Under the pieces are notes generated by a model. The model saw only the letters and a list, made by a program, of their open reading frames with translations. It made no database searches and had not been told where the DNA came from. DNA of 64,000 bases from Halosimplex salinum. GTDB taxonomy: Archaea; Halobacteriota; Halobacteria; Halobacteriales; Haloarculaceae. Below, piece by piece: positions 4,186-39,766 of the stretch. The stretch's first letter is position 1. Each line of letters opens with the position of its first letter. Location of the stretch: NCBI RefSeq assembly GCF_003730195.1, contig NZ_QWGG01000011.1:1-64000 (forward strand). Reading direction: 5' to 3'. Made by a program: the position numbers and the translations under genes.

Positions 4186-4402
4186 TGCCACAGTCACCTA
4201 CTTGAACTGAAGTTAATCTGCCTTCCGACCGAAAGCCGGGACGGTCAGACTCCTCAACGGCGATGACTTGTTTCGTCTCCTCGTGAGTGAGGTCTCCATT
4301 ACCGAGGCCGGGCACGAGTATCTTGAAGGTGACCGCAATCTCGCTGACTGAAGCGACGGAGCAAAGCCCAGCATCGTCCCAGCCAGCCACGTGATCGCCC
4401 AT
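4079..4402 (-). CDS. Possible small hypothetical protein, 3' end overlapping the DUF790 remnant
   Basis: The first about 65 residues (MGDHVAGWDDAGL, then VTFKILVPGLGNGDLTHEE) have a normal haloarchaeal composition and look like real protein. The last about 35 residues are read antisense to the DUF790 remnant and look random. The gene has probably lost its true 3' end at the same junction that truncated the nuclease gene. Confidence 0.35.
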   Translation of the reverse strand: MGDHVAGWDDAGLCSVASVSEIAVTFKILVPGLGNGDLTHEETKQVIAVEESDRPGFRSEGRLTSVQVGDCGTTANCSAIQQHRRRDPCFEPQNPVTRVAELLTRTI

Positions 4403-4477
4403 AATTCTAAAAAGTACTGAACTACCTCCTGAATAGGTGTGAACAGCGGGATTGCTTGGGTGAGACCGGGACGGCCG

Positions 4478-5242: not shown

Positions 5243-5299
5243 CGCTGTTCGCGTCGTGTGTATCGGTTGTAGGCTCGCTAGTATTAACGGTCGGGTGAG

Positions 5300-19400: not shown

Positions 19401-20099
19401 GTCTTCGGGCACCGTCGTCTGGGGTTCGTGATTCTGGACCCGCTCGACGTGTTCCTCGAGCGTTCCATCGGTGTCCTTCCAGTCGATGAGGTCCTGGCGT
19501 GCAGCTTCGTCGAGCTCGAAGACATCGACAGAGGGGTGGAAGCCGTTCCAGAGTGCGTTGAACGTCGAGACGTCTTCCTCGACGTACTTCGCTTCGCCGC
19601 GGCTCCAGGAGCGATGAACTTTGAAGCGTTCGTAGTTGTACTGCCACGCACTGAGCGTCTCGTTGATACTCCCCTCGAAGCTGATCTTGTTGCCCTCGCG
19701 ATCGACACCGATGCCGAGCTTCGGGTGGAAGAGTCCGTCACCGCCTTTGGGGTCGCCGACCTTGATTTGGAGGTCGCCGCGGTCGAGGAGGGTCGCGATG
19801 ATGGTGAGCTGGGACTCAACCCACGGTTCGAGGGGTTCATCTGCATCAGGGAACATCGCTCCCTTCTCGCGCTTCTGGAGGTCCGCTCCAGCGATGACAC
19901 GTACTGTTCCATCAGTCTCGAGGAGGGAGTCAACCCCTTCGAGAGCGTGCGCCAGACTACGTAGACTCAGATAGCCGGCGAGCCGGTCATAGCGAATGAC
20001 CTCGTTGAGGAATGGCCGGTAGAACGTCTCCATGAGCGTCCGGTTGGTCCGGAACTCGCTCTCGTACACCGGCTCCCACGAGACGTCCCTGAGGGTCAT
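16461..20099 (-). CDS. PLD-like/SNF2 superfamily 2 helicase of a defence operon
   Basis: 1212 residues. Residues 1-190 form a phospholipase-D-like domain with an HxK motif (HPKLGI, H125 and K127) and a following Asn (about N146). Then an SNF2-type motor: motif I FCDEVGLGKT (282-290), motif II DEAH (417-420), motif III TATP (446-449), and C-terminal motifs TDSASEGLNLQTAD and RIGRIDRIGQK. An acidic helical C-terminal third follows. Its ATG overlaps the methylase stop (TAATG). PLD-helicase fusions of this type occur beside DUF1156 methylases in archaeal defence loci. It is probably the DNA-translocating effector; a single HKD site would need a dimer to cut. Confidence 0.85.
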   Translation of the reverse strand: MTLRDVSWEPVYESEFRTNRTLMETFYRPFLNEVIRYDRLAGYLSLRSLAHALEGVDSLLETDGTVRVIAGADLQKREKGAMFPDADEPLEPWVESQLTIIATLLDRGDLQIKVGDPKGGDGLFHPKLGIGVDREGNKISFEGSINETLSAWQYNYERFKVHRSWSRGEAKYVEEDVSTFNALWNGFHPSVDVFELDEAARQDLIDWKDTDGTLEEHVERVQNHEPQTTVPEDDTAGVVSVAGRTPGGIHLAEEISTVTPWPHQRTISDTAVSIYPNNLLFCDEVGLGKTIEAGLTLSRLMQVGEAEQALFLVPAGLVQQWQNELLDRFNIHAYYHERSYDGDYMIGPLGDAEDHRIPTSGAVDADAWENTPIGSFVRERDEPTVVIESWHTARREGNQAHVAPRTDESVWDLTVVDEAHSAREETKLYDLLGQAEEASRCLYALTATPMQLNVGELYDLLRLCDLPEGWDDKDRFVEFFETRQALEDSLSTVGSRYQNIADGQQQVLQQFQKELDLEEDEGRPRIERFGKLIHEHLTSNPGYDEQAKALVEATDTESIQQRKALEKLVGVRETSPRFDDPRSLIFDCGPTEWSALVEASQWATPVQSRIFRNTRAVLEQCQDLGLLDDTVPTRDVETKRIELGDAAPLYDQVEQYIDETYKQSQKVLTGKEKLALGFVMTTYRQRLTSSLHAIKQSLQRRMEKLDEKVEDMTEEVSELSRDAGVTEATIDEAIGQASLDAYQPSSRGAADVIQAERTALQEFVDDLRQAHTDPKVAQLRRDIRSLRQSARDNIIIFTQYHDTLEHIRETLTDTHPNVGTYSGGGGMQYDETTGEWVNVGKEAIKRDFTDGDTNILICTDSASEGLNLQTADALINFDLPWNPMRVEQRIGRIDRIGQKNEVVKIINYAYKDSIDGDIYEELEGRLQLFENVVGPMRPVLNSIEQDIKDAVMGSSGSDDTREPSEQVVEEADSRAKRAQEKAEETGLADEPEEVSTKEAIIESSGLDGWELYCYPAFDEIGTGDRSYEPLVSLETIETQLTQNDRLEETEWSFTALRNHDRADDFEDIVDDAYVLELPEEDAVAMPESLGETAQAELGGGSGVVVTFNPEIAEQFPSIRLLLPGDPLFEALVREAAPTEVDNVEFVCGQRGESGSSVTRSSQVAEAKQATVVEPAVTSESVKNILGGTNSISDVDDAEQTILTWLSQLPAAE

Positions 20100-22954
20100 T
20101 ACTGATGTTCACCGAGCTCCGTCTGTCTGTCTTCCCCCGACATATCGATGTGATCGAGGTTTATGTCTAGGTAGTCCCCTGTTTCTCCGGAAACGAGGTT
20201 CACGAGGGTCTCTCGCATATCGGATTCGGTAGGGAGTACCTCTAAAAGAGCTGTAACGGTGGCTTCGAACTCCCGACTCGATTTGAGGTCCCTGTCGGAG
20301 AGCCATTCCCAAGCAGCACGGGGACCCTCCCGCTCGTACACGTGAATCGCTGCATGTACTGCGTCGATCATATAGGTAAAACGCATATCGGTCGGATTCA
20401 CGGGATACTTTCGTGACGAGGGATTGTCAGCACTGTCACTTTTAAGAAGGACAATGTCCTGAACTCGTTCATCGTGGTCTTTCAGAATTATGTCTTTCTG
20501 GCTCTTTCCCCAGATCTTCGTTGAACGTTTGATATTATCGATGTCTATGTTTGCTGCAACACCCAGTTGTCGTGCTTCGTCATAGGGGACAGTATCGTTC
20601 TCATAGATAAGCCATGAGAGAATGTACCAACGGGTGAGCGAGTCGATCTGATCGAGACCTTCAGTCTTGAGGAAGCGTTCAGCGAGAACACCAGTCACTG
20701 CTTTTCTTGCTTGTCCCAGTGCCTCTCGGGGTCGGATTTCCTCGCCCTTCTTATTCACGACAGGGTGTGCTTCAGCGTATTTTTGCAGGGTGGGGCCGTA
20801 TGCGGCGATCGCCGTATCCGTTTTGGAGATATTGTATCCCGAGTCAAGGATTTCTTCCGCTTGGTCTCGTGCGGCTTCACGAATACCCTCTTGGACATCT
20901 TCCCAAAGTGTCCGATCTGACGACTGACTCACTTGTTTCCGGGCAACAAGGAAGATAGAGCTGTCTGCACTTGCGTGGCCCTGCATACTAATCCTGTCCG
21001 ACATCTCGGTCTTGATTGGATGTGTTGCAGTAATGGTAAACCCGGCACTGATGAGAGCTGATGTGAGAGTGTCCCAGGCGTCCATCTCCCGATGAGTGAA
21101 CATTACAGTCATAACGCCACCCGGATTGAGGAGCTCCTGTACCTCTGAGAAGATCTCCTCCATCTTGTTCTCGTAATGTTCGTCCGCAAGTTCCTTCTTT
21201 GACTGTTCGTCGTCAGCAATCTCCTCAAATCGATAAGGGTTAGCTACTGCCTCATTATCTTTATCGGTCAGATTAGAACTGTAGATCTCTGGGTGGATGT
21301 CTTCCAAATATTCCTTCTGGATGACATAGAAGACGTCCGAAAGTTCTGCGTACATAATACTGCTGTAATACGGCGGATCAACAATTGCTGCATCAACCGA
21401 ACCAGGTTCTAATTTGGTAGTTAGCTGCCCCGCATCAGTCGATAAAACTTCTGCACCTTCCGAATCTGGAAGATACGAGACCAGTTTCTCATAGGCGTCA
21501 AACACGTGCTCAGAGTGCTTATGATACCCTCTACGAGGGGCGGATAGATTGTTGTCTACAGTCATCCGCTTTAGAATGAGTGTATTATCTGTGAAGATGT
21601 GGCTCCCGTAGCCTCTCGAGTCTCGCCACTGGTTGAGCCTTGTATTATAATTCATTGCTCGACTTCCGGCAAGGGCAAGAACTGTCAGTATAGCTTCTGA
21701 ACGGTCAGAATCGTAACTGTCTTGGATTTCAGACTTCTGCTTATGGAACGCATTCACGAATTCATACTGGACAACCAGTTGGCGTGGGGTGAATATATCC
21801 CGCCATTCGTGCATCCCATAAATGGCTGGGTCGTTTGTACGACTACTCACATCTACCGGTTCACTTAGGAATGTTAGAAGATCGAAGTCACTTTCGACTC
21901 TTTCCGCGGCCTTCTGCATTCCTTTTTTATCAACTTCTCCTCCAGCACGGTAGCCGCGTTTTCCGTTTTCTGTCTCGTAATTCACTCCGTAGATGCTGTA
22001 CTCGAATTCGCCATCGTGAATCTTCTTCCGAATGTCTTCCTTTTCGTTTACGACGTCACAGTGAGGGCATTCGGCACTCCGTCCCCTTAGAGGGGCCTCT
22101 TCTGGGTCATATTCCGGCTCGTTCTCGACTCGAACGTGGGTGTATTTCACCGTCCCATCCTCGTAGATCGGCTTAATGGCATCCCCACCGTCCGATTCCT
22201 TATTCAACCACCATTTGGAGACTAGCGGGATTTCTCCCGCACATGAATCGCATTGAATGATATACGTCATCGCCGAATTGAGGATCTGGCGACCGGGCTC
22301 TTCTGTGGGATAGTAGGGCTCAATATTATCTCTGGCAGTTTCGAGGATTTTGTCCCGCCATTCGCGAATATCCGGGTCAAGTGACCCAACTTTGGGTGCG
22401 TACTCTAGTCCCGCTTTTAGAATAAGTGAAGGAACAGGATTCAGCTCGTTCGCTTTCGCCGGAATCCCATATCGAATGGCCTCAAACGGGATGATTCCGC
22501 GCCCTGCGGTTGGATCAAGGATTGTGGGGAGCTCTCCACCCCACCCTTCTCGAAGCTTAGACTGGAGCTTCTCGATTTCGGTGTCCGTCGGAGACTGTGT
22601 ATTTGGATTCGGATACCCGTAATGGTCGTCGAGAGTGCCACTGCCCTTCTTTTCCGTGAATTTCTTCTCAACATAGTCGGTAATACCGGTGTTCAGCTGC
22701 TTCGGTCCTATTTTCATAAGACGGAGGAGCTCATCAGAGTCAATCTCACCAGGGTACACCGAGGCCAGTACAGCTAGCCTGACTGCTGGTGTAGGTCGGG
22801 CAGCAAACCATTTGTGGAGGCTCCGAAGCGCGTGATAACGCCCAGATTCCATATCTTTCTGACTCTCAATGTCGATTGCATTGAGGGGAAGTTTCGACTC
22901 GATTGCAACGTTCTCAGGAACCTCTGCTTCGTCCAGGAATGATTTCTCAGACAT
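20099..22954 (-). CDS. DUF1156 adenine-specific DNA methylase (COG1743-like)
   Basis: 951 residues from ATG 22954; the 32-residue upstream extension is basic and overlaps the previous gene, so it is rejected. The N-terminal DUF1156 signature LPLNAIDIESQKDMESGRYH and LHKWFAARPTPAVRL is clear. SAM motif I is DPTAGRG (147-153), the catalytic motif IV is DPPY (526-529), and a zinc ribbon C235xxC238/C296xxC299 lies between. It should make N6-methyladenine to mark self DNA. The gene looks more A+T-rich than surrounding haloarchaeal genes. It sits eight bases after DUF3780 and overlaps the helicase. Confidence 0.88.
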   Translation of the reverse strand: MSEKSFLDEAEVPENVAIESKLPLNAIDIESQKDMESGRYHALRSLHKWFAARPTPAVRLAVLASVYPGEIDSDELLRLMKIGPKQLNTGITDYVEKKFTEKKGSGTLDDHYGYPNPNTQSPTDTEIEKLQSKLREGWGGELPTILDPTAGRGIIPFEAIRYGIPAKANELNPVPSLILKAGLEYAPKVGSLDPDIREWRDKILETARDNIEPYYPTEEPGRQILNSAMTYIIQCDSCAGEIPLVSKWWLNKESDGGDAIKPIYEDGTVKYTHVRVENEPEYDPEEAPLRGRSAECPHCDVVNEKEDIRKKIHDGEFEYSIYGVNYETENGKRGYRAGGEVDKKGMQKAAERVESDFDLLTFLSEPVDVSSRTNDPAIYGMHEWRDIFTPRQLVVQYEFVNAFHKQKSEIQDSYDSDRSEAILTVLALAGSRAMNYNTRLNQWRDSRGYGSHIFTDNTLILKRMTVDNNLSAPRRGYHKHSEHVFDAYEKLVSYLPDSEGAEVLSTDAGQLTTKLEPGSVDAAIVDPPYYSSIMYAELSDVFYVIQKEYLEDIHPEIYSSNLTDKDNEAVANPYRFEEIADDEQSKKELADEHYENKMEEIFSEVQELLNPGGVMTVMFTHREMDAWDTLTSALISAGFTITATHPIKTEMSDRISMQGHASADSSIFLVARKQVSQSSDRTLWEDVQEGIREAARDQAEEILDSGYNISKTDTAIAAYGPTLQKYAEAHPVVNKKGEEIRPREALGQARKAVTGVLAERFLKTEGLDQIDSLTRWYILSWLIYENDTVPYDEARQLGVAANIDIDNIKRSTKIWGKSQKDIILKDHDERVQDIVLLKSDSADNPSSRKYPVNPTDMRFTYMIDAVHAAIHVYEREGPRAAWEWLSDRDLKSSREFEATVTALLEVLPTESDMRETLVNLVSGETGDYLDINLDHIDMSGEDRQTELGEHQ

Positions 22955-22962
22955 TGGTAGCT

Positions 22963-23580
22963 TTAGATGTGGTCGGCGAGTAGGACGCGAAGTGCTTTCG
23001 TACCGCTGGGTGACGACGGCGAGCGAGCCTTGGCGTGCCAGTAGTAGCATTCACCCAGACTCATCTGGTCGATTCCCTTTGCGACTTCACGGAGACGGTC
23101 TCGACGTCGCATCGGCTTCATCGCACGGAACGCGATCGAGAGCCGAACACCGGCCGCTTCGGGAAGACTCACGCTTGCTGGGCCTCCTGTACAGACGGTC
23201 TCGGGATCAAGACTCAGCTCCCGGAAGGTGGATTCGATGAGGAAACTCACCTCGTTGAACGCCCCGCCGCGTAACGTCGCGATATGAATCGCACACCAGT
23301 CATCCCAATCGTACGCCGCGTCATCTGCCCCGGGGAGTTCGGACGGGGAACGGTCGCCGATAATGGCCTCCTCCAGTTCGCGTACTGAGACGCTTACTGC
23401 TTTTTGGGCTCTCTCAAACCGTTCTCGTCGGGCCGTCGCGATATCGCGGGGCGCCAGCTCGTAGAGCGTGATTTCGTGCTGGTCGTCGACCCGATCGCGC
23501 GTCAACACGAACGTCGGTCGATTCCCGTACGCGCCGGTAGTGAAGGCGAACGAATTCCCCTCGGCGATCCCCTGACTCAT
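22963..23580 (-). CDS. DUF3780 family protein
   Basis: 205 residues. The closing segment MSLGECYYWHAKAR, then TKALRVLLADHI fits DUF3780, a family of about 200 residues known from bacteria and archaea next to DUF499 and DUF1156 genes. It has a beta-rich N-terminus and a WDDWCAIHIATLRGG helix; no enzyme motif. The start overlaps the DUF499 stop (ATGA) and the stop lies eight bases before the methylase, so it is translated within the operon. Probably a structural or specificity subunit of the complex (inference). Confidence 0.7.
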   Translation of the reverse strand: MSQGIAEGNSFAFTTGAYGNRPTFVLTRDRVDDQHEITLYELAPRDIATARRERFERAQKAVSVSVRELEEAIIGDRSPSELPGADDAAYDWDDWCAIHIATLRGGAFNEVSFLIESTFRELSLDPETVCTGGPASVSLPEAAGVRLSIAFRAMKPMRRRDRLREVAKGIDQMSLGECYYWHAKARSPSSPSGTKALRVLLADHI

Positions 23581-26500
23581 ACTTGGGTCACCTCGCTGGA
23601 TTCGATCAGACGGATTTGCGTGTGCATCGTGACGGTGAACGCGTTGTCGACAGCGAGGAGTTCGTCCAGGGCGTCGAACGTATCACCATAGAGGCGATCA
23701 TCGCCCTCGTCGAACTCAATCGCGAACTCGGCTTCAGCGGTACGACCGCCATCCGGATTCGCGAGATCTTCCGGCTCCATGTTGAATCGGAGGTGGCTTG
23801 CGAAGACCTCTGGGCGTCCATTGAAATCGACTTCGAACTCCGATTTCGAGTCGGCTCCGTCGTTGGCCTCATAATCGAAGTCCATCGTCGTGTCCTCTGC
23901 GAAGTCCTCATCGTTGCTGAGTTTGTTTGCAGTGAACCACGCGCCCTTCCACGCATCGGCCCCGTCCAGATGAATCCAGACGCCTTCGACGATGGGCGTC
24001 AGTTCGTCAGGGTGTCCGTCGTACTCCTCGCGAGCGCTGGTAAGCTCATCCGCGATGTCAGCCCGCATTTCCTGTAGGGCCCTAGAGACGTGTGCGGGCT
24101 CAGAGGTGCGAACTTCGATGAGTTTACTGAACGGCTCAGGTTCGTCATCGCCACCTGAACTGCCGCCGCTACTGCCGCCAGTCTCCTCATCATCGTCGTC
24201 AGGAGTCTCGTCCTCTTGCTCTTCGTCTTCGTCGGGTTCCTCCCAGTCGATCTCACTCCCGACGTCGTCGACCAGCTCATCGAGCGAGGTGTAGAGTGTG
24301 TGCGACTGCGAGAGCTTCACGTCCTGATAGCTGAGCCCCGTGTGCAGATTCTTCGCGTCGTCGAGTTCGTGATCGGTTGCCGTGAGCGCCGTCTCGGGCG
24401 TGTAGTACCCGGTCTTCTGCTCCTCGTCCCAGTAGGCGTACCCGTCTTCACGGACGAGCTGGGCGATCGTCTTTCGCAGTGGGATGGGTGACAGGAGAAT
24501 CTCCGCATCCTGGCGCTTCCCGAACTGTTCTTCGATTGCTCTCGTCGTCATCGAGGTCGAGCCGACGTTCCAGATCGTCGCCTCGAACCAGTCAACACCG
24601 TAGGCGTCCTCTCCTTCGGGGATGATCGCGCCTGCTTCATCGAGCTTCTCGATGACACTCTGATGGATGGTGCTGTCGGTGGTGACGTTCCGATGAGCCA
24701 GGCCATCTCCAGTCGGGAAGTAGAGATGCGTATACGCCTTTTTGATGTCCTGATCGAGCGTGCCCTTCGCGCTATCGAGGCGTTCACCGAGCTTGTCCTG
24801 CTGTTCGGTGTTGAGCTCGTACTGGTCGCCGAGATTATTCTGGATGTGTTTGATGGCAGCGACGCGCTCTGCGGTCCGCTTCGCGTCGGATACGTCGTTC
24901 GCGCTCGCCGCGAGGAAGACGACGTTATTCTTGAACACCCGTGGCGTCTTCTGTCCGCCACTCGACGATGCTGTATTCTTGAACAGCGTTTGGATTGCCT
25001 CGGGGACGGTCTCGTAGTCCGTGATGGTGACCGTATCGAAGTCCATCACGCACAGATGCGCTTCGTCGGCCGTATCCGGGATCTCGTGTGGCTCTTCCGG
25101 TCCGACAATCACATTCAGACTGCCCTGACCGAGTGCCTCGTCAAGGGCTTCCTCGAGATGCCGTCGGGCGAGCCCGTCTTGTAGTTGCTCGACGACGGAA
25201 TCGATGAGTTTCGTGAGGTTCGGCTCTGACTTGAACTGGATCTTCTCACCGTTGTCTCCGTGCAGGTAGAAACACGCAGACCGACGTCCCTCTCCAAGGA
25301 GGTTATTGAGCGCGTCGTCGTAGTGCGCAAGCTCGACTTCGGTGTTGGCAATCGCGTGTCGAAGAGGCCGGCGTGTAGTGCCGCGCCCGTCGGCGCCCTT
25401 CACGATGCTCTTCCAGAGGATTGCCGTCGTCAGATGTGTTCCGAGTGGGGGGTGTCCGTTCTTGACCCAATTCCGGTCCTCTTCCTCTGCGTTCGCCGTG
25501 CCATCTTCCGAGAAGATGTCGGCTTTGATCGCGGCCTCGAAGTCCATGTCGACCGACGAGAACAGCCGGAGAAGCGTCGAACGAACGTCCCCATCGGAGG
25601 GATGCATATCGAACAGACGAACGAAGTGGCGTTCTTGGTAGTCGCTCTGGTGCTGCCAGAGGCGGTAGACTGCGCGGGAGAGGAGCTTGAGCGCACCACG
25701 AGTGCGCTGGAACGACGGGAGGGAGTCCAGTTCCTCTGTGAGTGTATCAATGACCGTCGGATGAATCGGGTAGCTGTCTTCCAGGCGGTCTCGGTGTTCC
25801 GGGTTCGTTGCACTGTCGGGGAAGGAGTCACGATCACCCGTGTAGAGGGACATGTAGGCATCAACAGTTGCATCGCGCCCATCTTCCGCGACGCTCTCGA
25901 ACAAGCGGTGTCGCAGGACAGCGGCAATTTCGTTGTCCTCCGTCGGCGTAATGGAGCCCTCGACACGGTCGCTGATACTGTTGAACTCAGAGATGGTCTC
26001 GGAGACGAGACCACGGACGTCTTCGGCTTGGTCGGCGAAGGCGGTGTCCGCGATACTGAGGACAACAGTGACCTTGTCGTTGTTCTGCGTCGCGGACAGC
26101 AGCGACATCAGGAAGGTATTCGTCTGCTTCGCGAGCGTCGAATCCCCGATTTCGACAGCGGCAGCTTGCTCGAGATATGCGGCGATCTCGTCGATGAGGA
26201 TGAGCGATGGATTGTCGTTCCGCTCGAAGAGCCGCTCGAGTTTGGTCGTTCCTGGAGGCGTTCGGTTCTCGTCGTTCTCGCGCAGGAACTCGTAGCCTTC
26301 CCGCCCGAACAGCTGGTAGGCCATTTCGCCCCACATCGTCTTCGTCGCGGGGGCGTCAGGGTCGTCGTAGTTCGAGCGAGCGTCCTCGGCGTCGACGTGT
26401 GTGCCCACGAAGACGGCTGAGTTGACGTCGAGACCAAGTGCAGCGGCGTCAGTATACTCATCGGCGATGTCTTGGTCGAGGATGAAGTCAGACAGATCGG

Positions 26501-26870
26501 GGACAGCACTCGGCGACTCTGCGAGGTGATACGCGGCGATCTGGTTGTGGGTTTTCCCGCCACCGAAGCTGGTGTCGAGTCGGAGAATGCCGTTCGTACC
26601 GGTGTAGTCGTCGTTATGTGCGCCGACGAAACGGGTTGCGAGACGCGTGAGAAGCTCCTGCAGACCGCTAGTGGGGTAGGTTTTCTCGAAGAAGAGTCGA
26701 GGGTCCGCGTAGACATCAGGAGCGTCGTCGCTGTGGGCGACGTCCGCGAGGCTAGCCGCGAATTGGTCCTCAGCGAGCTCACCGGTGAGAACGTCCTGGC
26801 GAGGTTCGCAGGAGTCGAAAATACTCGGCGGACGATTCGTCGTGCCGGTGGTTGTGGGCGTATCGCTCAT
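23577..26870 (-). CDS. DUF499 AAA+ ATPase of a defence operon (COG1483-like)
   Basis: 1097 residues. Walker A SFGGGKTH (101-108) has the GGGKTH form typical of DUF499; Walker B LILIDEIAAYLEQ follows around residue 230. The long helical middle includes ATPase lid elements; residues about 860-895 are an acidic Asp/Glu then Gly/Ser linker, ending in a beta-rich C-terminal domain. DUF499 proteins are large ATPases predicted to act in phage defence and are compared with BREX BrxC/PglY. Both ends overlap neighbours by ATGA. Confidence 0.85.
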   Translation of the reverse strand: MSDTPTTTGTTNRPPSIFDSCEPRQDVLTGELAEDQFAASLADVAHSDDAPDVYADPRLFFEKTYPTSGLQELLTRLATRFVGAHNDDYTGTNGILRLDTSFGGGKTHNQIAAYHLAESPSAVPDLSDFILDQDIADEYTDAAALGLDVNSAVFVGTHVDAEDARSNYDDPDAPATKTMWGEMAYQLFGREGYEFLRENDENRTPPGTTKLERLFERNDNPSLILIDEIAAYLEQAAAVEIGDSTLAKQTNTFLMSLLSATQNNDKVTVVLSIADTAFADQAEDVRGLVSETISEFNSISDRVEGSITPTEDNEIAAVLRHRLFESVAEDGRDATVDAYMSLYTGDRDSFPDSATNPEHRDRLEDSYPIHPTVIDTLTEELDSLPSFQRTRGALKLLSRAVYRLWQHQSDYQERHFVRLFDMHPSDGDVRSTLLRLFSSVDMDFEAAIKADIFSEDGTANAEEEDRNWVKNGHPPLGTHLTTAILWKSIVKGADGRGTTRRPLRHAIANTEVELAHYDDALNNLLGEGRRSACFYLHGDNGEKIQFKSEPNLTKLIDSVVEQLQDGLARRHLEEALDEALGQGSLNVIVGPEEPHEIPDTADEAHLCVMDFDTVTITDYETVPEAIQTLFKNTASSSGGQKTPRVFKNNVVFLAASANDVSDAKRTAERVAAIKHIQNNLGDQYELNTEQQDKLGERLDSAKGTLDQDIKKAYTHLYFPTGDGLAHRNVTTDSTIHQSVIEKLDEAGAIIPEGEDAYGVDWFEATIWNVGSTSMTTRAIEEQFGKRQDAEILLSPIPLRKTIAQLVREDGYAYWDEEQKTGYYTPETALTATDHELDDAKNLHTGLSYQDVKLSQSHTLYTSLDELVDDVGSEIDWEEPDEDEEQEDETPDDDDEETGGSSGGSSGGDDEPEPFSKLIEVRTSEPAHVSRALQEMRADIADELTSAREEYDGHPDELTPIVEGVWIHLDGADAWKGAWFTANKLSNDEDFAEDTTMDFDYEANDGADSKSEFEVDFNGRPEVFASHLRFNMEPEDLANPDGGRTAEAEFAIEFDEGDDRLYGDTFDALDELLAVDNAFTVTMHTQIRLIESSEVTQV

Positions 26871-27219: not shown

Positions 27220-27783
27220 ATGCCGAAGCCGGATATCGAAGTCCTCGACGACGGCGACGCCTATCCGTATTCATCGCATATCAGCGTAGACGGTACAGAC
27301 CTCCAGCTGGGCGATCTTCTCCTTGTGTTTGATTCTCCTGACGATAATGGTGTCAGCTTCTTTGAGCGCATCTATGGGTTCACTTGGCCGGGAATCATCA
27401 CTCACGTCGTCGATGGGCCGGTTCCTGCTGAGTTCCACAATTTCGAGGACTTTGCTGCGGATCTCGACAGCGGGAAGACCGCGGTCGCCAGCAAACGCGA
27501 ACAAACGAGCTTCTTTGTCGACGAAGACACCGTCCGCACTATCACCCTCTACCGATACCAGTACCAGGGCGGGTGGCAGCCGATAGTGATTGATGAGCGA
27601 CGAGATCCACTTGAGAACACTCCTTTCAATGAATCAATTACTCTCTGTGAGGATGGAGAGCAGGTAATTGAAGAACTACTCGGGACGAGTTCACCTGAGG
27701 AGAAGCAGGAGGTTGAGCATCTCCGTGAATTTCTACGGTCTGCTGGTTATCAACTAAATCCGATCTCTGATTCAGACGAATAA
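27220..27783 (+). CDS. Unknown 187-residue protein between two defence systems
   Basis: Starts MPKPDIEVLDDGDAYPYSSH. Beta-rich with a DLQLGDLLLVFDSPDD core, a FFVDEDTVRTITLYRYQYQ strand pair and a C-terminal acidic helix. No family recognised. It is divergent from the DUF499 operon and ends 17 bases from the end of the convergent Argonaute gene, so it could belong to either system as a regulator or sensor, or be unrelated. Confidence 0.55.
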   Translation: MPKPDIEVLDDGDAYPYSSHISVDGTDLQLGDLLLVFDSPDDNGVSFFERIYGFTWPGIITHVVDGPVPAEFHNFEDFAADLDSGKTAVASKREQTSFFVDEDTVRTITLYRYQYQGGWQPIVIDERRDPLENTPFNESITLCEDGEQVIEELLGTSSPEEKQEVEHLREFLRSAGYQLNPISDSDE

Positions 27784-27800: not shown

Positions 27801-29219
27801 TCACATATAGTAGAAATACTGTGGCCGAACCTCTGAGATGGACTCCGTATCTACTTCGGAGAGGATTGTACCAACACGCTTTGCAACACTCACGGTTGCT
27901 GGCATCCGAATTGCGTAGTCTGATGTATTCCAGTCGAGTTTCGTGAAAAAGAGGATCTCCTTACAGATCTCTAACGAGGGTGTCTCACAGATCTCGTCAG
28001 GTCGGATCTCAATCGGTGATGGTACTCCACTCCCCTGATAGGTCGTCTCTTCCGGGACATATCCGGATGTGTAGAGATAGTGGACGTCGTCATCAGGGAC
28101 GCTCAGGAGGGTTCCCCGTATGGCGGGATAATCCGTAGGTGGGAACAACCTGACCTTTGGCCGCCTACGAACCCAGACTAGATCTAAATCGCGAACACCA
28201 TCTGTGGCATCAAGCAACCCTTCACGTTCTTCATCCCAGAAGACAGATGGCTTATGAAGGACGAACCGGCTGGGACGTGTCCCTTTCTGAGCTTCGTAGT
28301 ATTCCAGAATCTGCTCACCTACCTGTCTAGCCGCCTCATATGAGAGGTGGGGAGACCCATTCTCGTCCTCGGTGATATCCGGGAGTGGATCGCTCTGAAG
28401 GATAATATGGTCCCGTCCGTGAAAGACGTGAGCAAGAGCAGCTCGAATTACATCATCTCCTTCGTCTCGCTCTCTGTAGAACGAGAGTCCTGCGTAGCAG
28501 TGCCCATCTTCGATCTGCCGAGTTTTCCAGGGATGCCCTCGTTGTGACTTGTATAGAAGTCCAACTGTGAGATTCCAGGCCCGAGATGCTCGCTGTCGGT
28601 CAGTACGGATTGCAAGTGTGGATGGCTTAATCAGCTGTGTGGGGATTCGAGCCTCTATCCCGATCAGCTTGATTCGATTTCGCAGGTCAGAACCTTCCGA
28701 CTGGATCCGCGCATGGTCCTGGTTCTCAGGAGTACACGCGTCCATCACTTCTTGCGGAATACAGACGATGATTGCGTTCGGCTGAACCGAATCCCGTTCG
28801 ATTATCTCTATGTCTTTCCGCACTAGCTTCAGGAATCGCTCCATCCGATCTCTGGGGGTCGATTTACTCGTAACAGATTGGATGTCTCGTCGGCGAATTT
28901 GGCGTCTCCAACCCTTCTTTGCATTGATGGAGAGATTGAGCGGGGAACTCTTACCAAGGCCGGAATACGGAACCTGCCACGGATTATCACTCGTTCCTGG
29001 ATGGATCCCGACCTCCATATCGTGAAGTAGTTCGGTCAACCGGCGGATCGAATCTCGATCGCCGATAATCCCGAGTTTGATTGTGTGGTGTCCTTCTTCA
29101 TAGAGCCGTGGACCATATCTGATAAGGCCACGTTTGGGAGAGGTTTCAGTACCTCCTTCAAACTGAATCTCTGGCTCCTCGAGGTGACGAAGCGTGAACG
29201 GGGAATCTTCAGGCGTCAT
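27801..29219 (-). CDS. Short prokaryotic Argonaute (MID-PIWI), catalytically inactive
   Basis: 472 residues, the usual length of short pAgos, which lack N and PAZ domains. MID elements are NAIIVCIPQEVMDAC (148-162), IKLIGIEARIPTQLI (183-197) and an Arg-rich RTDRQRASRAW. PIWI strands are CYAGLSF (241-247), where the first catalytic Asp is Ser/Leu, RFVLHKPSVFW (318-328), where RDG is replaced by HKPS, and the C-terminal FFTKLDWNTSDYAIRMPATV (424-443). It should bind guide and target without cutting and signal to its partner. Its ATG overlaps the stop of the nuclease-APAZ gene. Clearly A+T-rich. Confidence 0.85.
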   Translation of the reverse strand: MTPEDSPFTLRHLEEPEIQFEGGTETSPKRGLIRYGPRLYEEGHHTIKLGIIGDRDSIRRLTELLHDMEVGIHPGTSDNPWQVPYSGLGKSSPLNLSINAKKGWRRQIRRRDIQSVTSKSTPRDRMERFLKLVRKDIEIIERDSVQPNAIIVCIPQEVMDACTPENQDHARIQSEGSDLRNRIKLIGIEARIPTQLIKPSTLAIRTDRQRASRAWNLTVGLLYKSQRGHPWKTRQIEDGHCYAGLSFYRERDEGDDVIRAALAHVFHGRDHIILQSDPLPDITEDENGSPHLSYEAARQVGEQILEYYEAQKGTRPSRFVLHKPSVFWDEEREGLLDATDGVRDLDLVWVRRRPKVRLFPPTDYPAIRGTLLSVPDDDVHYLYTSGYVPEETTYQGSGVPSPIEIRPDEICETPSLEICKEILFFTKLDWNTSDYAIRMPATVSVAKRVGTILSEVDTESISEVRPQYFYYM

Positions 29220-30640
29220 TGTTCAATTCCACCTGTGTTTTCGAGATCAGACGCTGACTCGATGAGCTCATCACGTTCGTCTCCATCTTTGGGCGGGCGG
29301 ACATTGAGGGACAGCGAGTCAACTCTGGTCACTTCGAGTTCCTTTACGACGGGTATCTTTTCACCCATAAATCGATCAAGCTGGGTCTGATCCGACATCA
29401 GCAACTCTTCCCAGACACGCAGCTGGCGGTCGTACTTACTATTCTGGGCGTGGAAACGATTTGGCGAGAAGTCGTTTTGGAGCCGCGATTTACGCTCGCC
29501 TGTTACAGGTCGACGACCGTCGGAAGTGAAGACTTGTGTGGGTAGCAGAACGTAGTAGTACTCTTCCGCATAGCGCCGCACTCGTACTTTGACACCACGA
29601 TGGATGACATCGGGGTAGGAGTCTAACTCCTTTGCAACCCAAGATCGACCTAGTTTTCGCTCGGAACCGTGCTGTCTGCGGTCTAGTTCGGGGTATACGG
29701 TTGTTCCCTTCTCACGGTCGATGAGACAATCGTTATCTCTTGCAACGAGAGTGAAAATCCCTCTGAGAAGGGACCTTACGATATTTTCACGCTCTTCTTC
29801 TTGAGCCCGCGTTCGGAGGAACTCCTCGAACTCTCGTGTTTCGAAACGGTCCTCGTGTATGTAATGACGAGTAGACCCCGGAAGATGGTCCGGATGAACG
29901 AGCGAATATAATTTCCGCTCGTGAAGCTTGATGGGGAACGCTTCGTTGTTATAATTATAGACGCGAGCAGATTCGGCTTCCTCTGTCGTCTCTATGATGT
30001 ACAGTGTCTCTGGGTAGCGGGTTACCTGAAACAGATTCGTCGCATATTCTGTTTCCTCAGAAACCGGTTCATACGAATGAAGATATGGTTCGTACTGGAA
30101 CCGTTCTGTTTTCTCGAGTTGATGAGCTTGTTGACGGAGGTCATCGTATGTACCTACGAAAACATGGGTATCAATAGCAAAATCTCGGAACTCATCTACA
30201 TCAGTATCATCTAGCCGATCTACGACCTCATCGTTAACGCTGTCTTTGAGTTTTTCGTAGAAGTCGACCAGTTTCTGATTATCGGTGACATCACGATCGA
30301 ACAGGGCTTTCCAGAGCTGGTCATTAGAAAGTGTCTCCGTAAAAATATAGAAGTCAAACCGGTGGGGTTGGGGTTGTTTGATATATTCGAGGAAATACCG
30401 GGCCAATTCGTCTCTAAAATCGTTCGGGCTGAGGCCTGTGGAATACGCTTTTGCTTCGGCTACCACTTTATCGCCCGTAGCTTTGTTCACAAACTGAATA
30501 TCGTCAAGCGTAGAGTGGAAGGCTGAATCCCGCTCAACCATGTAATTCAGCCCTTCCATATACTCAATGACGACTTCCTTATAGTCCTCCCCGCGTCGCG
30601 CCGTCCCTTCCCGCTCTTTATATAGATTGTAGATGGGCAC
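29216..30640 (-). CDS. PD-(D/E)XK nuclease-APAZ partner of the short Argonaute
   Basis: 474 residues, GTG start at 30638-30640. The N-terminal nuclease core is LDDIQFVNKATGDKVVAEAK: D46/D47 and E62-x-K64, a PD-(D/E)XK arrangement, followed by helix NDFRDELARYFLEY. The C-terminal region, ending YYYVLLPTQVFTSDG and KYDRQLRVWEELLM, fits an APAZ domain, which stands in for the missing N-PAZ lobe of Argonaute. The pair corresponds in layout to SPARDA-type systems, where guide-directed target recognition releases indiscriminate DNase activity and kills the infected cell. That mechanism is inference here; the nuclease subfamily is not certain. Confidence 0.75.
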   Translation of the reverse strand: MPIYNLYKEREGTARRGEDYKEVVIEYMEGLNYMVERDSAFHSTLDDIQFVNKATGDKVVAEAKAYSTGLSPNDFRDELARYFLEYIKQPQPHRFDFYIFTETLSNDQLWKALFDRDVTDNQKLVDFYEKLKDSVNDEVVDRLDDTDVDEFRDFAIDTHVFVGTYDDLRQQAHQLEKTERFQYEPYLHSYEPVSEETEYATNLFQVTRYPETLYIIETTEEAESARVYNYNNEAFPIKLHERKLYSLVHPDHLPGSTRHYIHEDRFETREFEEFLRTRAQEEERENIVRSLLRGIFTLVARDNDCLIDREKGTTVYPELDRRQHGSERKLGRSWVAKELDSYPDVIHRGVKVRVRRYAEEYYYVLLPTQVFTSDGRRPVTGERKSRLQNDFSPNRFHAQNSKYDRQLRVWEELLMSDQTQLDRFMGEKIPVVKELEVTRVDSLSLNVRPPKDGDERDELIESASDLENTGGIEQ

Positions 30641-30723
30641 GTTGTATCTCGTTACAAGGAAGTCTCGTGTGAATTACTTTTCCCTCAGTCGTTGGATAGT
30701 CTACTGGGATCCGACGATACTTC

Positions 30724-30730
30724 TATAAAA
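30724..30730 (+). promoter_or_regulatory. TATA box for the 274-residue gene
   Basis: TATAAAA at 30724-30730 lies about 27 bases before the ATG at 30753, the spacing of haloarchaeal leaderless promoters. This supports ATG 30753 over the upstream in-frame TTG at 30744. Confidence 0.5.
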
Positions 30731-30752
30731 CGAGCGGTAGATATTGGAGATA

Positions 30753-31577
30753 ATGAATCGTGGGGACTTGGGAACGACTCTGCGTCTCCTCAATCGCGAA
30801 CGAGGGACCGCGGATGCGTTGCCGAAAAAGTCGCTTCACAAGCTCCTCTATCGTATTGACGTCAAATCTGCCGAGCAAGATTTGGACATCGAGATTCCGT
30901 ATTACTGGTATCTCTTTGGTACCGTATCTCCAGCCACGCCCTCAACTGTCCCCTCAGCCAGTATTAACGAGCCCGGACTTGAAGATCGCCTACGTTCTGT
31001 TGTCTCAGAGGCTCTCTCAGAATATTACGAACATGGGTTAGAATGGCTCACAGACAGAATGTATGATGATGCGCCGTATGAGGTTCAGCGGGATTTTCGG
31101 GAGTTAGATAAGAAAATACGGACGTTACATACGGAGTATCACGATTTCTTTGAGGTTGATCCAAGCAGAGAATCGGTACTCAGCTCCGTCCACGACACTT
31201 TTGAATCATTTCCAAATGACCGATTTTCGGAGTACGACCGACCGCTAATCAAGTGGTATAATGCGGTCACACGAGAACTCCATTCGCATTCTCCTGATCC
31301 CTCCAGATTGATGACGGTGAATGTCACGTTCTGGCGTATATTTGCTCTCGAACTTGCTCAACGGCATGCCCAGGGAATGTCTCCGGAAGAGGTTCGTGGG
31401 AACCTCGGTATAACCTCGTTTGAGGAGGCTCGGAGTTCTGCGATTCAGAAACTTGACGAATTCGAAGAGGAAGACCTTGATGCGAAATTTTCTGGATTAC
31501 CGACTGAACTCGAATCTGAACGGAGTGCAGCTGACGAACTTGTTGCTCCGATTCTTGAACGCCGGCATTCGTTGTAG
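30753..31577 (+). CDS. Unknown 274-residue protein, divergent from the Argonaute operon
   Basis: The start at 30753 (MNRGDLGTTLRLLNRERG) is set by the TATA box. The N-terminal part KSLHKLLYRID, then IEIPYYWYLFGTVSP recalls the Lys-Leu-x-Tyr...Tyr-Gly-Pro pattern of SocA/Panacea-type antitoxin domains, but the match is by eye only. The rest is helical, with FWRIFALELAQRHAQGMSPE and a tail of acidic helices. A PIN nuclease gene follows after an insertion element, so the two were probably neighbours. Candidate antitoxin, sensor or defence component. Confidence 0.55.
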   Translation: MNRGDLGTTLRLLNRERGTADALPKKSLHKLLYRIDVKSAEQDLDIEIPYYWYLFGTVSPATPSTVPSASINEPGLEDRLRSVVSEALSEYYEHGLEWLTDRMYDDAPYEVQRDFRELDKKIRTLHTEYHDFFEVDPSRESVLSSVHDTFESFPNDRFSEYDRPLIKWYNAVTRELHSHSPDPSRLMTVNVTFWRIFALELAQRHAQGMSPEEVRGNLGITSFEEARSSAIQKLDEFEEEDLDAKFSGLPTELESERSAADELVAPILERRHSL

Positions 31578-31645
31578 TTTAACGCCTCACGCCAGCGCCG
31601 TCTGCTGATCTGAATATCGTTGGGACTACCTGTCAGAGAAACCCG

Positions 31646-32980
31646 GTGGCTGCTGTGAGTTACGAACCACCGGATTCAGTGATTGTCGACCGGATCAAAA
31701 GAGCGTTTCCCTCTGAGGAGTTGCGCGAGCGCGCTCGCGCAACGAATCTCGTCCAACGAGAGCGCAAGTTCGACACTGTCGCGTTGTTCTACACCCTCTC
31801 ACTGGGTTTCGCTGCTGGATCAGATCGCTCTATTCAGGCATTTCTCGAACGGTTTGTCGAAATGGCTGACTGTGACGAACTCGCTTATCCAACCTTCCAC
31901 GGCTGGTTTTCACCCGCGTTCGTTACACTCCTGCGAGAGATTCTCGATGACGCCATCGAGAATCTCGAACCGGGACAAACCGACCTCAGCGGACGTCTCG
32001 AACGCTTTCGAGACGTCCTCATTGTTGACGCTTCTATCATCACACTCTACCAAGACGCTACAGACGTCTACGCAGCGACTGGCGAAGATCAAGCTGGCGT
32101 GAAGCTTCACCTCACAGAATCACTCTCAACCGGACTTCCTACGCGTTTTCAAACGACTGACGCCAAAACGCAGGAACGGAGCCAGCTACCCACCGGTGAG
32201 TGGGTAGCTGGCGCACTCGTCTTACTCGATCTCGGCTTCTACGACTTCTGGTTGTTCGACCGTATCGATCAAAACGACGGCTGGTTCATCTCACGGGTCA
32301 AAGATGACGCAAACTTCGAGATCGTCGAAGAGCTTCGCACATGGCGGGGAAACAGTATTCCGCTCGAAGGCGAGTCGCTGCAGGACGTCCTTGACGACCT
32401 GCAGCGACAGGAGATCGACGCTCGGATTACCCTCTCATTCGACCGCAAGCGAGGGTCGGGCGTCAGCACGACCCGAACGTTCCGACTCGTCGGTGTGCTC
32501 AACGAGGACAGCGATGAGTACCATCTCTACCTAACGAATCTTTCCAGAGACAACTACCACGCGCCCGATATCGCACAGCTCTATCGGGCGCGCTGGGAGA
32601 TTGAGCTGCTGTTCAAGGAACTCAAATCGCGCTTCGGTCTCGATGAGATCAATACGACAGATCCCTACATCATCGAAGCGCTGATCATCGTAGCGGCGCT
32701 CTCGCTGCTGATGAGCCGCGTTATCGTGGATGAACTCCGCAAATTAGACGCAAAGCGGCAGGGGAGCGACGACGACGCGGCCGCGTCGTCGACGCGTCTT
32801 CCACGTCGTCGGTGTTCTCACGCGCTCGAACGTCACGCACACCTAGTCCAGCTGTACCTGATGCTGGATCTCGGGTATGAACTGCCAGATCTCGACGAAT
32901 TGCTGTTGTGGTCGTCACGAGATCCAAATCCACATCGACCAAGATTACGTGAGCAGGTTGAGTCAGGCGAGTTCTGGTAG
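31646..32980 (+). CDS. IS4-family transposase, ISH8 type
   Basis: 444 residues with a GTG start 27 bases inside the element. DDE residues are visible: DASIITLYQ (first Asp), LDLGFYDFWLFDR (second Asp) and the YREK-like box YRARWEIELLFKELK (Glu). The frame is intact, so the element may be active. A 13-bp perfect inverted repeat lies inside the gene at 32181-32212. The C-terminal part has a low-complexity SDDDAAASSTRLPRRR insert. Confidence 0.88.
   Translation: MAAVSYEPPDSVIVDRIKRAFPSEELRERARATNLVQRERKFDTVALFYTLSLGFAAGSDRSIQAFLERFVEMADCDELAYPTFHGWFSPAFVTLLREILDDAIENLEPGQTDLSGRLERFRDVLIVDASIITLYQDATDVYAATGEDQAGVKLHLTESLSTGLPTRFQTTDAKTQERSQLPTGEWVAGALVLLDLGFYDFWLFDRIDQNDGWFISRVKDDANFEIVEELRTWRGNSIPLEGESLQDVLDDLQRQEIDARITLSFDRKRGSGVSTTRTFRLVGVLNEDSDEYHLYLTNLSRDNYHAPDIAQLYRARWEIELLFKELKSRFGLDEINTTDPYIIEALIIVAALSLLMSRVIVDELRKLDAKRQGSDDDAAASSTRLPRRRCSHALERHAHLVQLYLMLDLGYELPDLDELLLWSSRDPNPHRPRLREQVESGEFW
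32181..32212. repeat. Perfect 13-bp inverted repeat inside the transposase gene
   Basis: GCCAGCTACCCAC at 32181-32193 and its exact complement GTGGGTAGCTGGC at 32200-32212, six-base spacer CGGTGA. It would form a very stable hairpin in the transposase mRNA. Confidence 0.8.
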
Positions 32981-33042
32981 AAACTCGCCTGACAAGCCGG
33001 TTAGCTCAGAGGTAGGTAGTAGCGACAGCTCTGGATCGGCGA

Positions 33043-33064
33043 CGCACTCACCGGAGTGAGTGCG
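33043..33064. terminator. Hairpin just outside the right end of the insertion element
   Basis: CGCACTCAC (33043-33051), loop CGGA, GTGAGTGCG (33056-33064): a perfect 9-bp stem. No T-run follows, so it could be a processing or barrier structure rather than an archaeal terminator. Confidence 0.4.
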
Positions 33065-33265
33065 CCGCCTTCAGAGAGTGACACAGATCTCAGCATCCGA
33101 GACAGAAGAACATCCGTTCAGTTCTCCGATCACGCTTCATTAGCGATTCGACTCAACACCGTCTTGCTCAACTATCCGCATAAACACCGCCTCGACGCGC
33201 CGCTAAACTACAACGGATGTGAACGCCGGGGAATTGCGCACGAAGATCTCCATCCGGGCCAATGA
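33056..33265 (+). pseudogene. ORF fragment ending at the PIN gene start
   Basis: An open frame whose stop TGA (33263-33265) overlaps the PIN start as ATGA, the typical coupling of a cistron to its partner. About 45 residues before the stop (FSDHASLAIRLNTVLLNYPH and on) look protein-like, while the first residues lie in a hairpin. It may be the displaced 3' end of the gene that once preceded the PIN gene, cut by the insertion element, or simply an open frame. Confidence 0.3.
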
Positions 33266-34059
33266 CTCGATACTTCGTAGACACTAACGTCCTCATTGGA
33301 CTCACGTTTTCTCACGATCGGTGGGCCGTAGAAGCAGAGCGTATCCTAGACGGTCATAACACGCTCTTCACGAGTGAGTTTGTGATCTACGAGTATTGCA
33401 GCCGTCCACAAGGAGCGCCTCGAGTTGTGTCCGACCCCGATCAACTACAGGTTGACCCTGACGATACCGATGGCGTGTTCGGGACCGTTCTTGAAGACTT
33501 TCAAGAGAACGTCGAGGATAATATCCCAATGTACAATCGAGAAATCGATTTACAGCGCTACGATGGGCTTTCCTTTGAGAGGATCTTAGAGATTTTCTTC
33601 GATAATATTGAGGTTCGAAGTCAGGCCAAGCCACACTTTGTTCGACACTTTCAGAACTACTTCTCCTCGCGTGAAATCACCCCACGGAATGCGAAACGGT
33701 GTGTCGAAGATCTTCGAGATCGTGTTCTCCACGACGCAAAGGAGCGGAAAGACGCACTAATGGATGCTGTCCACGTCATGTCGTCAACTTATGACGATCA
33801 GGAGCGCGCTCGCGGTCTAGTCAAGGAGCACATCGGAATTCGAGAGTCCCGGATTCCTCCAGTAGACTCTCAGTGGCTTCTTGACGCAATAGGGCTTGCA
33901 GAACGCGATGTGCTTCAGCGTGTTGTGACCGGAGATAAGAAAGACATCGTCCGATATCAGCAACAACTGACGTCATTATTTGATGTTTCAATCCTCTATA
34001 TTTTGGATGAGTTTCATACTCATTCCCAAGTCAGTCAGGATTCACACGAGATCTTCTGA
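33262..34059 (+). CDS. PIN-domain ribonuclease, 265 residues
   Basis: The N-terminal MTRYFVDTNVLIGLTF gives D7 and N9 of a PIN fold; E44 (VIYEYC) and Asp residues in KERKDALMDAVHVMSS complete the acidic set. At 265 residues it is about twice the size of VapC toxins, with a long helical insertion and C-terminal extension (TGDKKDIVRYQQQL). A PIN protein of this size beside a divergent Argonaute operon suggests a toxin or effector RNase. The predicted partner is the 274-residue protein on the other side of the insertion element. Confidence 0.75.
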   Translation: MTRYFVDTNVLIGLTFSHDRWAVEAERILDGHNTLFTSEFVIYEYCSRPQGAPRVVSDPDQLQVDPDDTDGVFGTVLEDFQENVEDNIPMYNREIDLQRYDGLSFERILEIFFDNIEVRSQAKPHFVRHFQNYFSSREITPRNAKRCVEDLRDRVLHDAKERKDALMDAVHVMSSTYDDQERARGLVKEHIGIRESRIPPVDSQWLLDAIGLAERDVLQRVVTGDKKDIVRYQQQLTSLFDVSILYILDEFHTHSQVSQDSHEIF

Positions 34060-38401: not shown

Positions 38402-39766
38402 TTAGATAACACCGCTGATGACGAGTAGCCCGACGACAACTAGCAGCGTCGCAACCACACTCCCACCAGCTAAGAGTTTGTTCTCCATCGCCTTCTTATG
38501 GATCGGCATATCGGTGTACTCCTCACGGAAGGCCTCGAGATTGTCTTCGTCGTAGAAGTACTTCGTCTTCAACGCGAACCGCTCAGTTACGGCACAGCCC
38601 GTACAGACCGGTTTCTGCTTTAGCCGTTCGGTCTTGGTGTGGCTGTCGCAGGCGATCGCTCCACAGTTGGGACAGTAGGTGTACGTCTCGTCGACGCCGT
38701 TCATATCGCAGTGGACGCAGCGATGGATTCCGTCCTCGGCGGTCACTCTTGACGGGCCCGTCGCGTAGTATTCGTAGGGATAGGTGTACTCTTTGAGGTC
38801 GGTGGTGTGCCGAACCTCGGGAAGGTACACCGGTTTGATCGACTGGACGGAGATATCCGAGCGGTTCGGCTCGCAGGTCTTGTTGTACGTGACGTTGTTG
38901 TCGCCGGTATAGGTGACTGTCGTCGTGTGGTGCTGCTGGAGTCGCTCAACGGCCCACTCCTTGTACTCGGTCTGCGTCTGGCCAAACCGGTGCTCCTTGA
39001 CCTCGTCGAATACCTCGCCGAATCGATTGGTGTCCAGGTCGACCGTCACGTGCAGGTTTTCGGTGACCAGCGTCGCGACGTCGTCGTCAGCTACCTGGGG
39101 ATGTCCGCGGTCAGCGTGAACGGCAAACCGTGTCCGTTCGTTGATTCGGTGGATGACGCCGACTGATGTCTCGAAGACCGCGTTGGTGTCAGCGGTGACT
39201 GCTACGACCGGCCGAAATGTCGCCTCTGAGCGTGGCGCCGGCAGGTCGGTGGCCTCAATGTTCTCAATGTCGTGGAACGCTTCCTTGACCGGTGCGTCGA
39301 CGGCGGCCGCGGGATCGTAGGGACGGAGTGTTTCGTCACAGAGGATTTCGATTCGACCGTTGTAGAGGTCGAGGCCGATCTCATCGGCGATCTCCCGGAG
39401 GTCCTCGCCGTCGAGCAGCTCGATAGGATGGGGATCGACGTTCTGTTGGAGCCGTTCTGCGTACTCCTGGGCCGGGTTCGTGAACCGGCCGGTTGTGACG
39501 ACTATCCCCTGCTTTGGCCCCTCGAAGTCGAACGTCGCGATGGCCGAATGTAATTTCTGCACGACCGGCCGTCCGACTGCATCCGTGTGCTTGCACTCGA
39601 CGATGATTGCGCGCCGCTGTCCGTCGACGACCTCCTCCATGATGACGTCCCGGCCCTCGTCGGCGGTTCGATCGGCCTGGCGGACGTTCTCGTAGCCGAG
39701 ATTTCGGAAGACATCCTCCATCACGTCCTCGAACTCGAATCCGGAGAGGTCGTCCAGTACAGCCAT
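38402..39766 (-). CDS. Mrr-type restriction endonuclease with zinc ribbon and membrane anchor
   Basis: 454 residues. The N-terminal Mrr_cat domain FEDVMEDVFRNLGYENV, GRDVI (D40), IVECKH (E57, K59) and VVQKLHSAI (Q70) is complete. The middle (150-330) is unassigned. A zinc-binding part follows (CVHCDMNG, CPNCGAIAC, CTGC), then a hydrophobic C-terminal helix (about 430-452) that should anchor it in the membrane. Mrr proteins cut methylated or foreign DNA; a membrane tether would place cleavage at DNA entry. Monocistronic. Confidence 0.85.
   Translation of the reverse strand: MAVLDDLSGFEFEDVMEDVFRNLGYENVRQADRTADEGRDVIMEEVVDGQRRAIIVECKHTDAVGRPVVQKLHSAIATFDFEGPKQGIVVTTGRFTNPAQEYAERLQQNVDPHPIELLDGEDLREIADEIGLDLYNGRIEILCDETLRPYDPAAAVDAPVKEAFHDIENIEATDLPAPRSEATFRPVVAVTADTNAVFETSVGVIHRINERTRFAVHADRGHPQVADDDVATLVTENLHVTVDLDTNRFGEVFDEVKEHRFGQTQTEYKEWAVERLQQHHTTTVTYTGDNNVTYNKTCEPNRSDISVQSIKPVYLPEVRHTTDLKEYTYPYEYYATGPSRVTAEDGIHRCVHCDMNGVDETYTYCPNCGAIACDSHTKTERLKQKPVCTGCAVTERFALKTKYFYDEDNLEAFREEYTDMPIHKKAMENKLLAGGSVVATLLVVVGLLVISGVI

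Follow-up and report, generated by a model that had tools for sequence, protein, structure and literature searches.

A short-Argonaute locus of Halosimplex salinum: a catalogued nuclease-APAZ core accompanied by a conserved Panacea-like/PIN gene pair

Does a haloarchaeal short prokaryotic Argonaute (pAgo) operon form a two-gene system, or is it part of a larger unit? The question is raised by a stretch of 64,000 nucleotides from Halosimplex salinum (assembly GCF_003730195.1, contig NZ_QWGG01000011.1, positions 1 to 64,000 of the forward strand; hereafter the window), in which a SPARDA-type short Argonaute with a PD-(D/E)XK nuclease-APAZ partner had been placed at 27801-30640 (the original prediction). 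Both open reading frames (ORFs) were found as described, on the minus strand, encoding 472 and 474 amino acids (aa) and overlapping by 4 nt (ATGA). The span did not stand as the whole unit: two further conserved genes lie beside it, at 30753-31577 (+; ORF277, Panacea-like) and 33262-34059 (+; PIN265, PIN domain). The conserved haloarchaeal unit consists of four genes, not two.

The linkage was assessed in 391 haloarchaeal genomes, in which a PIN gene was found beside all 35 nuclease-APAZ loci at a distance of 1.0-1.15 kb (2.7 kb in the window); these loci include near-identical copies and comprise about 13 lineages separated by a divergence of more than 15%. A homologue of ORF277 occupied the same place in every intact haloarchaeal REase-APAZ locus examined. 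When ORF277 was searched alone in GTDB genomes, each of the 22 loci found carried the Argonaute/nuclease operon or its remains. An intact nuclease-APAZ gene was always accompanied by an intact ORF277, and a broken ORF277 was seen only beside a broken nuclease, the numbers being small; in three loci the nuclease was broken and ORF277 intact. One further locus (G034:C3, L134:6809-8682) carries an intact short Argonaute gene and a nuclease-APAZ gene reduced to its last quarter, with no ORF277 or PIN gene nearby.

The same pair was also found in two genomes devoid of nuclease-APAZ, where it precedes a split Argonaute system on the same strand (L127:3941-9403 and L128:4120-9521, both minus). These operons encode three proteins: one matching the N-terminal region of class II pAgos, one with MID-PIWI domains of the EcAgo/AfAgo type, and one whose C-terminal part apparently contains membrane helices. 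In a tree of ORF277 proteins, the 18 Argonaute-linked members, those of the split systems included, formed one clade (support 98/96). More distant ORF277-like proteins of other haloarchaea mostly stand directly before a PIN-like gene of 230-250 aa with no Argonaute. The pair thus follows the Argonaute and not the nuclease: it also stands before the split systems, its Argonaute-linked members fall into a single clade, and the relatives without an Argonaute resemble ordinary Panacea-PIN pairs. The free-standing pairs (L136-L150; 1200-1370-aa neighbours in L138, L143 and L150) constitute an apparently undescribed Panacea-PIN toxin-antitoxin-like family.

The Argonaute gene (27801-29219, minus strand, ATG start) was identified by PADLOC, PDB matches and its motif pattern. 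The MID-PIWI assignment was borne out, with scores far above chance, by the PADLOC pAgo profile (E 1.5e-215) and by the closest PDB chains, which were those of short Argonautes (9om4_B of SPARHA, E 2e-54; 9qbl_B of SPARDA, E 8e-50; further SPARDA chains 9qbp and 9jsb). All 27 readable relatives carry G-[ILV]-S at the position of the first PIWI aspartate and HKxS at that of RDG; the replaced residues already pointed out in the window protein (GLS, HKPS) are therefore kept across the family, and the loss of slicing is probably ancestral to it. MID residues K184, TQ195 and YK224 are conserved in the same relatives and recur in local alignments to SPARDA Argonautes. The protein is classed as a short class I pAgo with a predicted dead PIWI domain and without N or PAZ domains. 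A survey of haloarchaeal pAgos, which concentrates on long pAgos, reported PIWI domains that consistently keep the catalytic tetrad (PMC11442185). Both proteins are acidic (isoelectric points 5.9 for the Argonaute and 4.9 for nuclease-APAZ), so that the suggested salt adaptation holds as far as composition goes; it is the usual haloarchaeal acidity and nothing beyond.

The partner (29216-30640, minus strand, GTG start) comprises a nuclease domain (residues ∼1-178) and an APAZ domain (∼194-451). It matched the PADLOC family Aga_REase_Archaea (PDLC02417) over its full length (E 1.5e-170). PADLOC thus lists both families, and the two-gene core is of an already catalogued kind, a point that the original prediction had missed; the PADLOC entry is confined to the effector, and some of its relatives come from methanogens, where the additional pair is absent. 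In the proposed active site D46/D47-E62-x-K64, residues D47, E62 and K64 were invariant in 32 of 32 distinct relatives, whereas D46 was not conserved; the nuclease domain is predicted to have intact catalytic residues. In the AlphaFold2 model, the N-terminal part follows the helix-strand-strand-strand-helix-strand order of the PD-(D/E)XK layout, in which D47 lies immediately ahead of strand two while strand three carries E62/K64. The C-terminal half, originally termed APAZ-like, can be called APAZ with more assurance: a profile of its relatives retrieved the APAZ domains of solved DUF4365-APAZ and HNH-APAZ proteins (E 4e-9 to 7e-8; 4e-9 for the DUF4365-APAZ chains), and the best solved match of the model was XauSPARDA 9qcc (Z 19.7, 235 residues, model residues 194-451).

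A SPARDA-type architecture, as first proposed, was supported in that a short class I pAgo with a predicted dead PIWI domain is joined to a PD-(D/E)XK-APAZ partner. With the characterised SPARDA systems (short pAgo with DREN/DUF4365-APAZ; XauSPARDA, NbaSPARDA and TmuRE-Ago), the locus shares the Argonaute class and its inactive PIWI, the order nuclease-APAZ then Argonaute, the APAZ fold, the PD-(D/E)XK topology and the active-site aspartate and lysine. It differs in its two extra conserved genes and in its nuclease. The catalytic residues of DREN in NbaSPARDA are D41/Q60/K62 (PMC12205087) and the corresponding residues of TmuRE are Q62/K64 (PMC10810196). By sequence, membership of the nuclease in DUF4365 was rejected because a Pfam search of 15 partner relatives gave no DUF4365 match, hhalign gave none either (score 10.8, 11 columns), and E-x-K stands where DREN has Q-x-K. 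The locus is therefore not a SPARDA in the strict sense (a DUF4365 domain with D..Q-x-K); it agrees with SPARDA in the broad sense (short pAgo with nuclease-APAZ) in its domains and catalytic residues, but not in having two genes. The suspicion of a different nuclease subfamily was upheld. SPARHA (9om4), which supplied the best solved match of the window Argonaute, has the same APAZ but an HNH nuclease. Several nuclease-APAZ types have been described (PMC6299218, PMC10810196). In another locus (L083:2755-4185, +), the partner protein combines APAZ with a Schlafen AlbA_2 domain (Pfam E 1.4e-11), next to the gene of a short pAgo of class I at 4124-5707; this effector is not among the types listed in the short-pAgo literature searched.

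ORF277 (30753-31577, plus strand; alternative TTG start at 30744) is divergent from the nuclease gene across a region of 112 nt (30641-30752; 94-165 nt in relatives), which is presumed to be a bidirectional promoter; no shared palindrome was obvious by eye, and no sigma-70-like promoter was found, in a search that does not cover archaeal promoters. The motif K..hK..Y, followed by WY.yG and MYxdAPY, is reminiscent of Panacea (DUF4065/SocA). None of 16 members matched PF13274 in Pfam, even with E values up to 5 allowed, so that the curated Panacea cut-off is not reached, and the relationship emerged by profile-profile comparison, weakly at first and clearly with deeper profiles. The first profile scored 34.5, whereas none of 550 column shuffles exceeded 23.5. 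The wider ORF277 family aligned to Panacea by hhalign with E 1e-6 (probability 91%, 114 colinear columns, score 50.7 against at most 23 in shuffles), and the Argonaute-linked rows alone gave E 5e-5. Since Panacea was picked after the motif had been seen by eye, the first P-values carry some selection, and the later ones with larger margins weigh more. One Argonaute-free relative (in L138) matched a Panacea hidden Markov model directly (E 5e-8, for 31 sequences searched). The N-terminus is accordingly assigned as a predicted remote Panacea (antitoxin) domain; for the helical C-terminal extension no match was found. The AlphaFold2 model of ORF277 (predicted local distance difference test score, pLDDT, 82; predicted template modelling score 0.78) matched no known fold significantly (Foldseek on the PDB, VIA second look, BFVD); the best BFVD matches were 147-aa phage proteins, none of them significant, and ORF277 was not found in viral contigs. 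Like Panacea (PanAT/SocA, DUF4065) systems, ORF277 stands upstream of a toxin-like ribonuclease gene with overlapping reading frames; it differs from them in its sub-threshold Pfam score, its long helical extension and its tie to Argonautes.

PIN265 (33262-34059, plus strand, 265 aa) is the next gene after ORF277 in relatives, the spacing there ranging from a 4-nt overlap to a 14-nt gap with ORF277 first. The Pfam PIN model matched the window protein just under its curated cut-off (E 1e-4, 23.4 bits against 23.6); the acidic residues expected of a PIN domain are present, D6, E43, D201 and D224 in 14 of 14 sequences and D207 in 13 of 14. PIN domains are ribonucleases, and PIN265 is a predicted PIN-domain ribonuclease. 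In the window the two genes are separated by an ISH30-like insertion sequence of the IS4 type (31566-33219, plus strand; transposase 31646-32980, Pfam DDE_Tnp_1), which was delimited by blastn against intact relatives and is flanked by a perfect 10-bp target duplication, TGAACGCCGG (31556-31565 and 33220-33229). Plasmid matches of this element carry the name ISH30. The insertion replaced the last codons of the window ORF277. Elsewhere (L135:2579-4213, minus strand; the locus of L068), a frameshift interrupts ORF277, and the adjoining PIN protein lacks the otherwise conserved D207; this double damage fits toxin-antitoxin logic, as a single case.

Taken as a whole, the locus is read as a SPARDA-like abortive defence with an integrated arm derived from a toxin-antitoxin system, that is, as a four-gene haloarchaeal short-Argonaute immune module (probability about 0.5). 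In SPARDA, guide-directed recognition of DNA leads to assembly, collateral nuclease activity and cell death or dormancy, the guides being RNA (PMC12205087, PMC10810196). By homology, the dead Argonaute would join nuclease-APAZ in a heterodimer carrying a small guide, most likely of RNA. Once this guide had paired with invader DNA, the complexes would assemble and their nuclease domains would come together; these would then break down DNA, and perhaps RNA, without specificity, and the infected or plasmid-invaded cell would die or become dormant. This core mechanism, taken by itself, is very probable. A toxin-antitoxin origin of the pair is indicated by its Panacea domain and PIN ribonuclease, by the gene overlap and by the relatives that have no Argonaute. 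The Panacea-like protein would most likely restrain the PIN ribonuclease, which may be freed as a guard or second strike once the Argonaute system fires or is disabled. Two Argonaute types whose effectors differ have both retained the pair, so its partner in function should be the Argonaute rather than the nuclease itself. A role as guard or second strike is put forward tentatively, at somewhat less than even odds, and ranks first among the roles considered. Several observations tell against the four-gene module. Methanogen relatives of the Argonaute/nuclease pair have neither ORF277 nor PIN265, and bacterial SPARDA functions as a two-gene system (PMC12205087); the core reaction can therefore do without the pair. 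The model of nuclease-APAZ is only moderate (mean pLDDT 65), ORF277 has no Pfam, PHROG or PDB sequence match and no solved-structure match, and in the window the ISH30-like element uncouples ORF277 from PIN265.

Second in rank stands a role in guide supply, in which the PIN ribonuclease would cut cellular or invader RNA into Argonaute guides with the Panacea-like protein as a gate. A function of this type, common to Argonautes, fits because the pair stays with the Argonaute whether the effector is the nuclease or the membrane-type protein, and a ribonuclease would suit the RNA guides of SPARDA; the methanogen and bacterial relatives without the pair, the Argonaute-free Panacea-PIN pairs and the intact ORF277 in three loci with a broken nuclease argue the other way and make it unlikely, if still a serious contender. 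More doubtful is a reading in which the two genes serve simple addiction or plasmid stability, as a toxin-antitoxin module that merely lies beside the Argonaute operon. Many loci are plasmid-borne, and the gene order and overlap are typical of such modules, but the distance to the operon is nearly fixed in all 35 loci, chromosomal ones included, the Argonaute-linked copies group in a single clade even though further Panacea-PIN pairs were at hand for swapping, and the same clade occurs with a second Argonaute type.

The divergent position of ORF277 next to the nuclease gene, together with the want of any locus in which an intact nuclease lacks ORF277 or has a broken copy, would suit a role as an antitoxin or inhibitor directed specifically at the nuclease-APAZ effector. 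This is the least probable of the roles, as ORF277 also accompanies the split Argonaute system without nuclease-APAZ and occurs in free-standing pairs with PIN-like genes, while the methanogen nuclease-APAZ does without it. Whether the window copy is a decaying, functionless remnant is a separate matter: the insertion cut the end of ORF277 and split it from PIN265, and decayed copies occur in a genome of the same genus. All four ORFs of the window are nevertheless open, the invariant catalytic residues are present, and the copy is ∼96-98% identical to uninterrupted ones, so that decay to a remnant is improbable. On the most far-reaching reading, the Panacea-PIN pair would be a dedicated, effector-independent accessory of haloarchaeal Argonautes that was acquired a single time and has since been retained with both Argonaute types, acting as guide maker or as guard/second strike in an obligate four-gene system; the odds of this are judged to be even.

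The pair is a concrete candidate for one of two roles, the supply of guides to short Argonautes or the restraint of their suicidal effectors; as the same ribonuclease and antitoxin-like protein travel with Argonautes of different effectors, a genetically tractable test in haloarchaea is at hand. Such an accessory, if the reading is correct, would unite RNA-guided immunity with a toxin-antitoxin module inside a single system. Where short-Argonaute loci are annotated as operons of two genes, their conserved divergent partners are overlooked. ORF277 gave no PADLOC match, and no mention of a third or fourth gene of Aga_REase_Archaea systems was found in the literature searched. A link of Argonautes with Panacea, SocA, DUF4065 or PIN was likewise not found reported in open-licence literature, which is not proof of novelty. 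The split operons L127 and L128 are alike to the Sulfolobus SiAgo-type pseudo-short pAgo system (Aga1-Ago-Aga2) in their N-L1-L2-like protein, MID-PIWI protein and apparent membrane-helix protein, whereas the window system is of the APAZ/nuclease type; the likeness of the membrane protein is presumed from visible hydrophobic segments and gene order. Two further loci (L129:688-8994, minus strand; L130:5962-14276, plus strand) combine a long pAgo (751 aa) and an Eco57I/MmeI-like type IIG protein in one cluster, with a weaker Panacea-like (Panacea-motif)/PIN-like pair near the long pAgo.

Copies of the cassette with 91-97% identity occur on plasmids and contigs from Haloarcula, Natrinema, Halorussus, Haloplanus, Halosimplex, Halorarius and others. 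The copy on plasmid pHMA155 of H. marismortui ATCC 43049 is not interrupted, and all its genes are annotated as hypothetical there, ORF277 under E6P14_RS00450; more distant versions also lie on chromosome-sized contigs. The DUF499 operon noted as directly adjacent does adjoin the system in the window (at 23577-26870), but the association is not a general one: it accompanies the system only in a near-identical plasmid clade and was rejected as a part of it, as was ORF187 (27220-27783), which is confined to the same clade. The operon itself (16461-26870, minus strand) encodes a PLD-type SNF2 helicase, a DUF1156 methylase, DUF7680 and DUF499 and resembles Hma/Pbe/DISARM-like candidate defence systems. 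A further defence candidate of the window is a 454-aa protein (38402-39766, minus strand) whose N-terminal part is a restriction endonuclease domain of the Mrr_cat family (Pfam E 7e-27).
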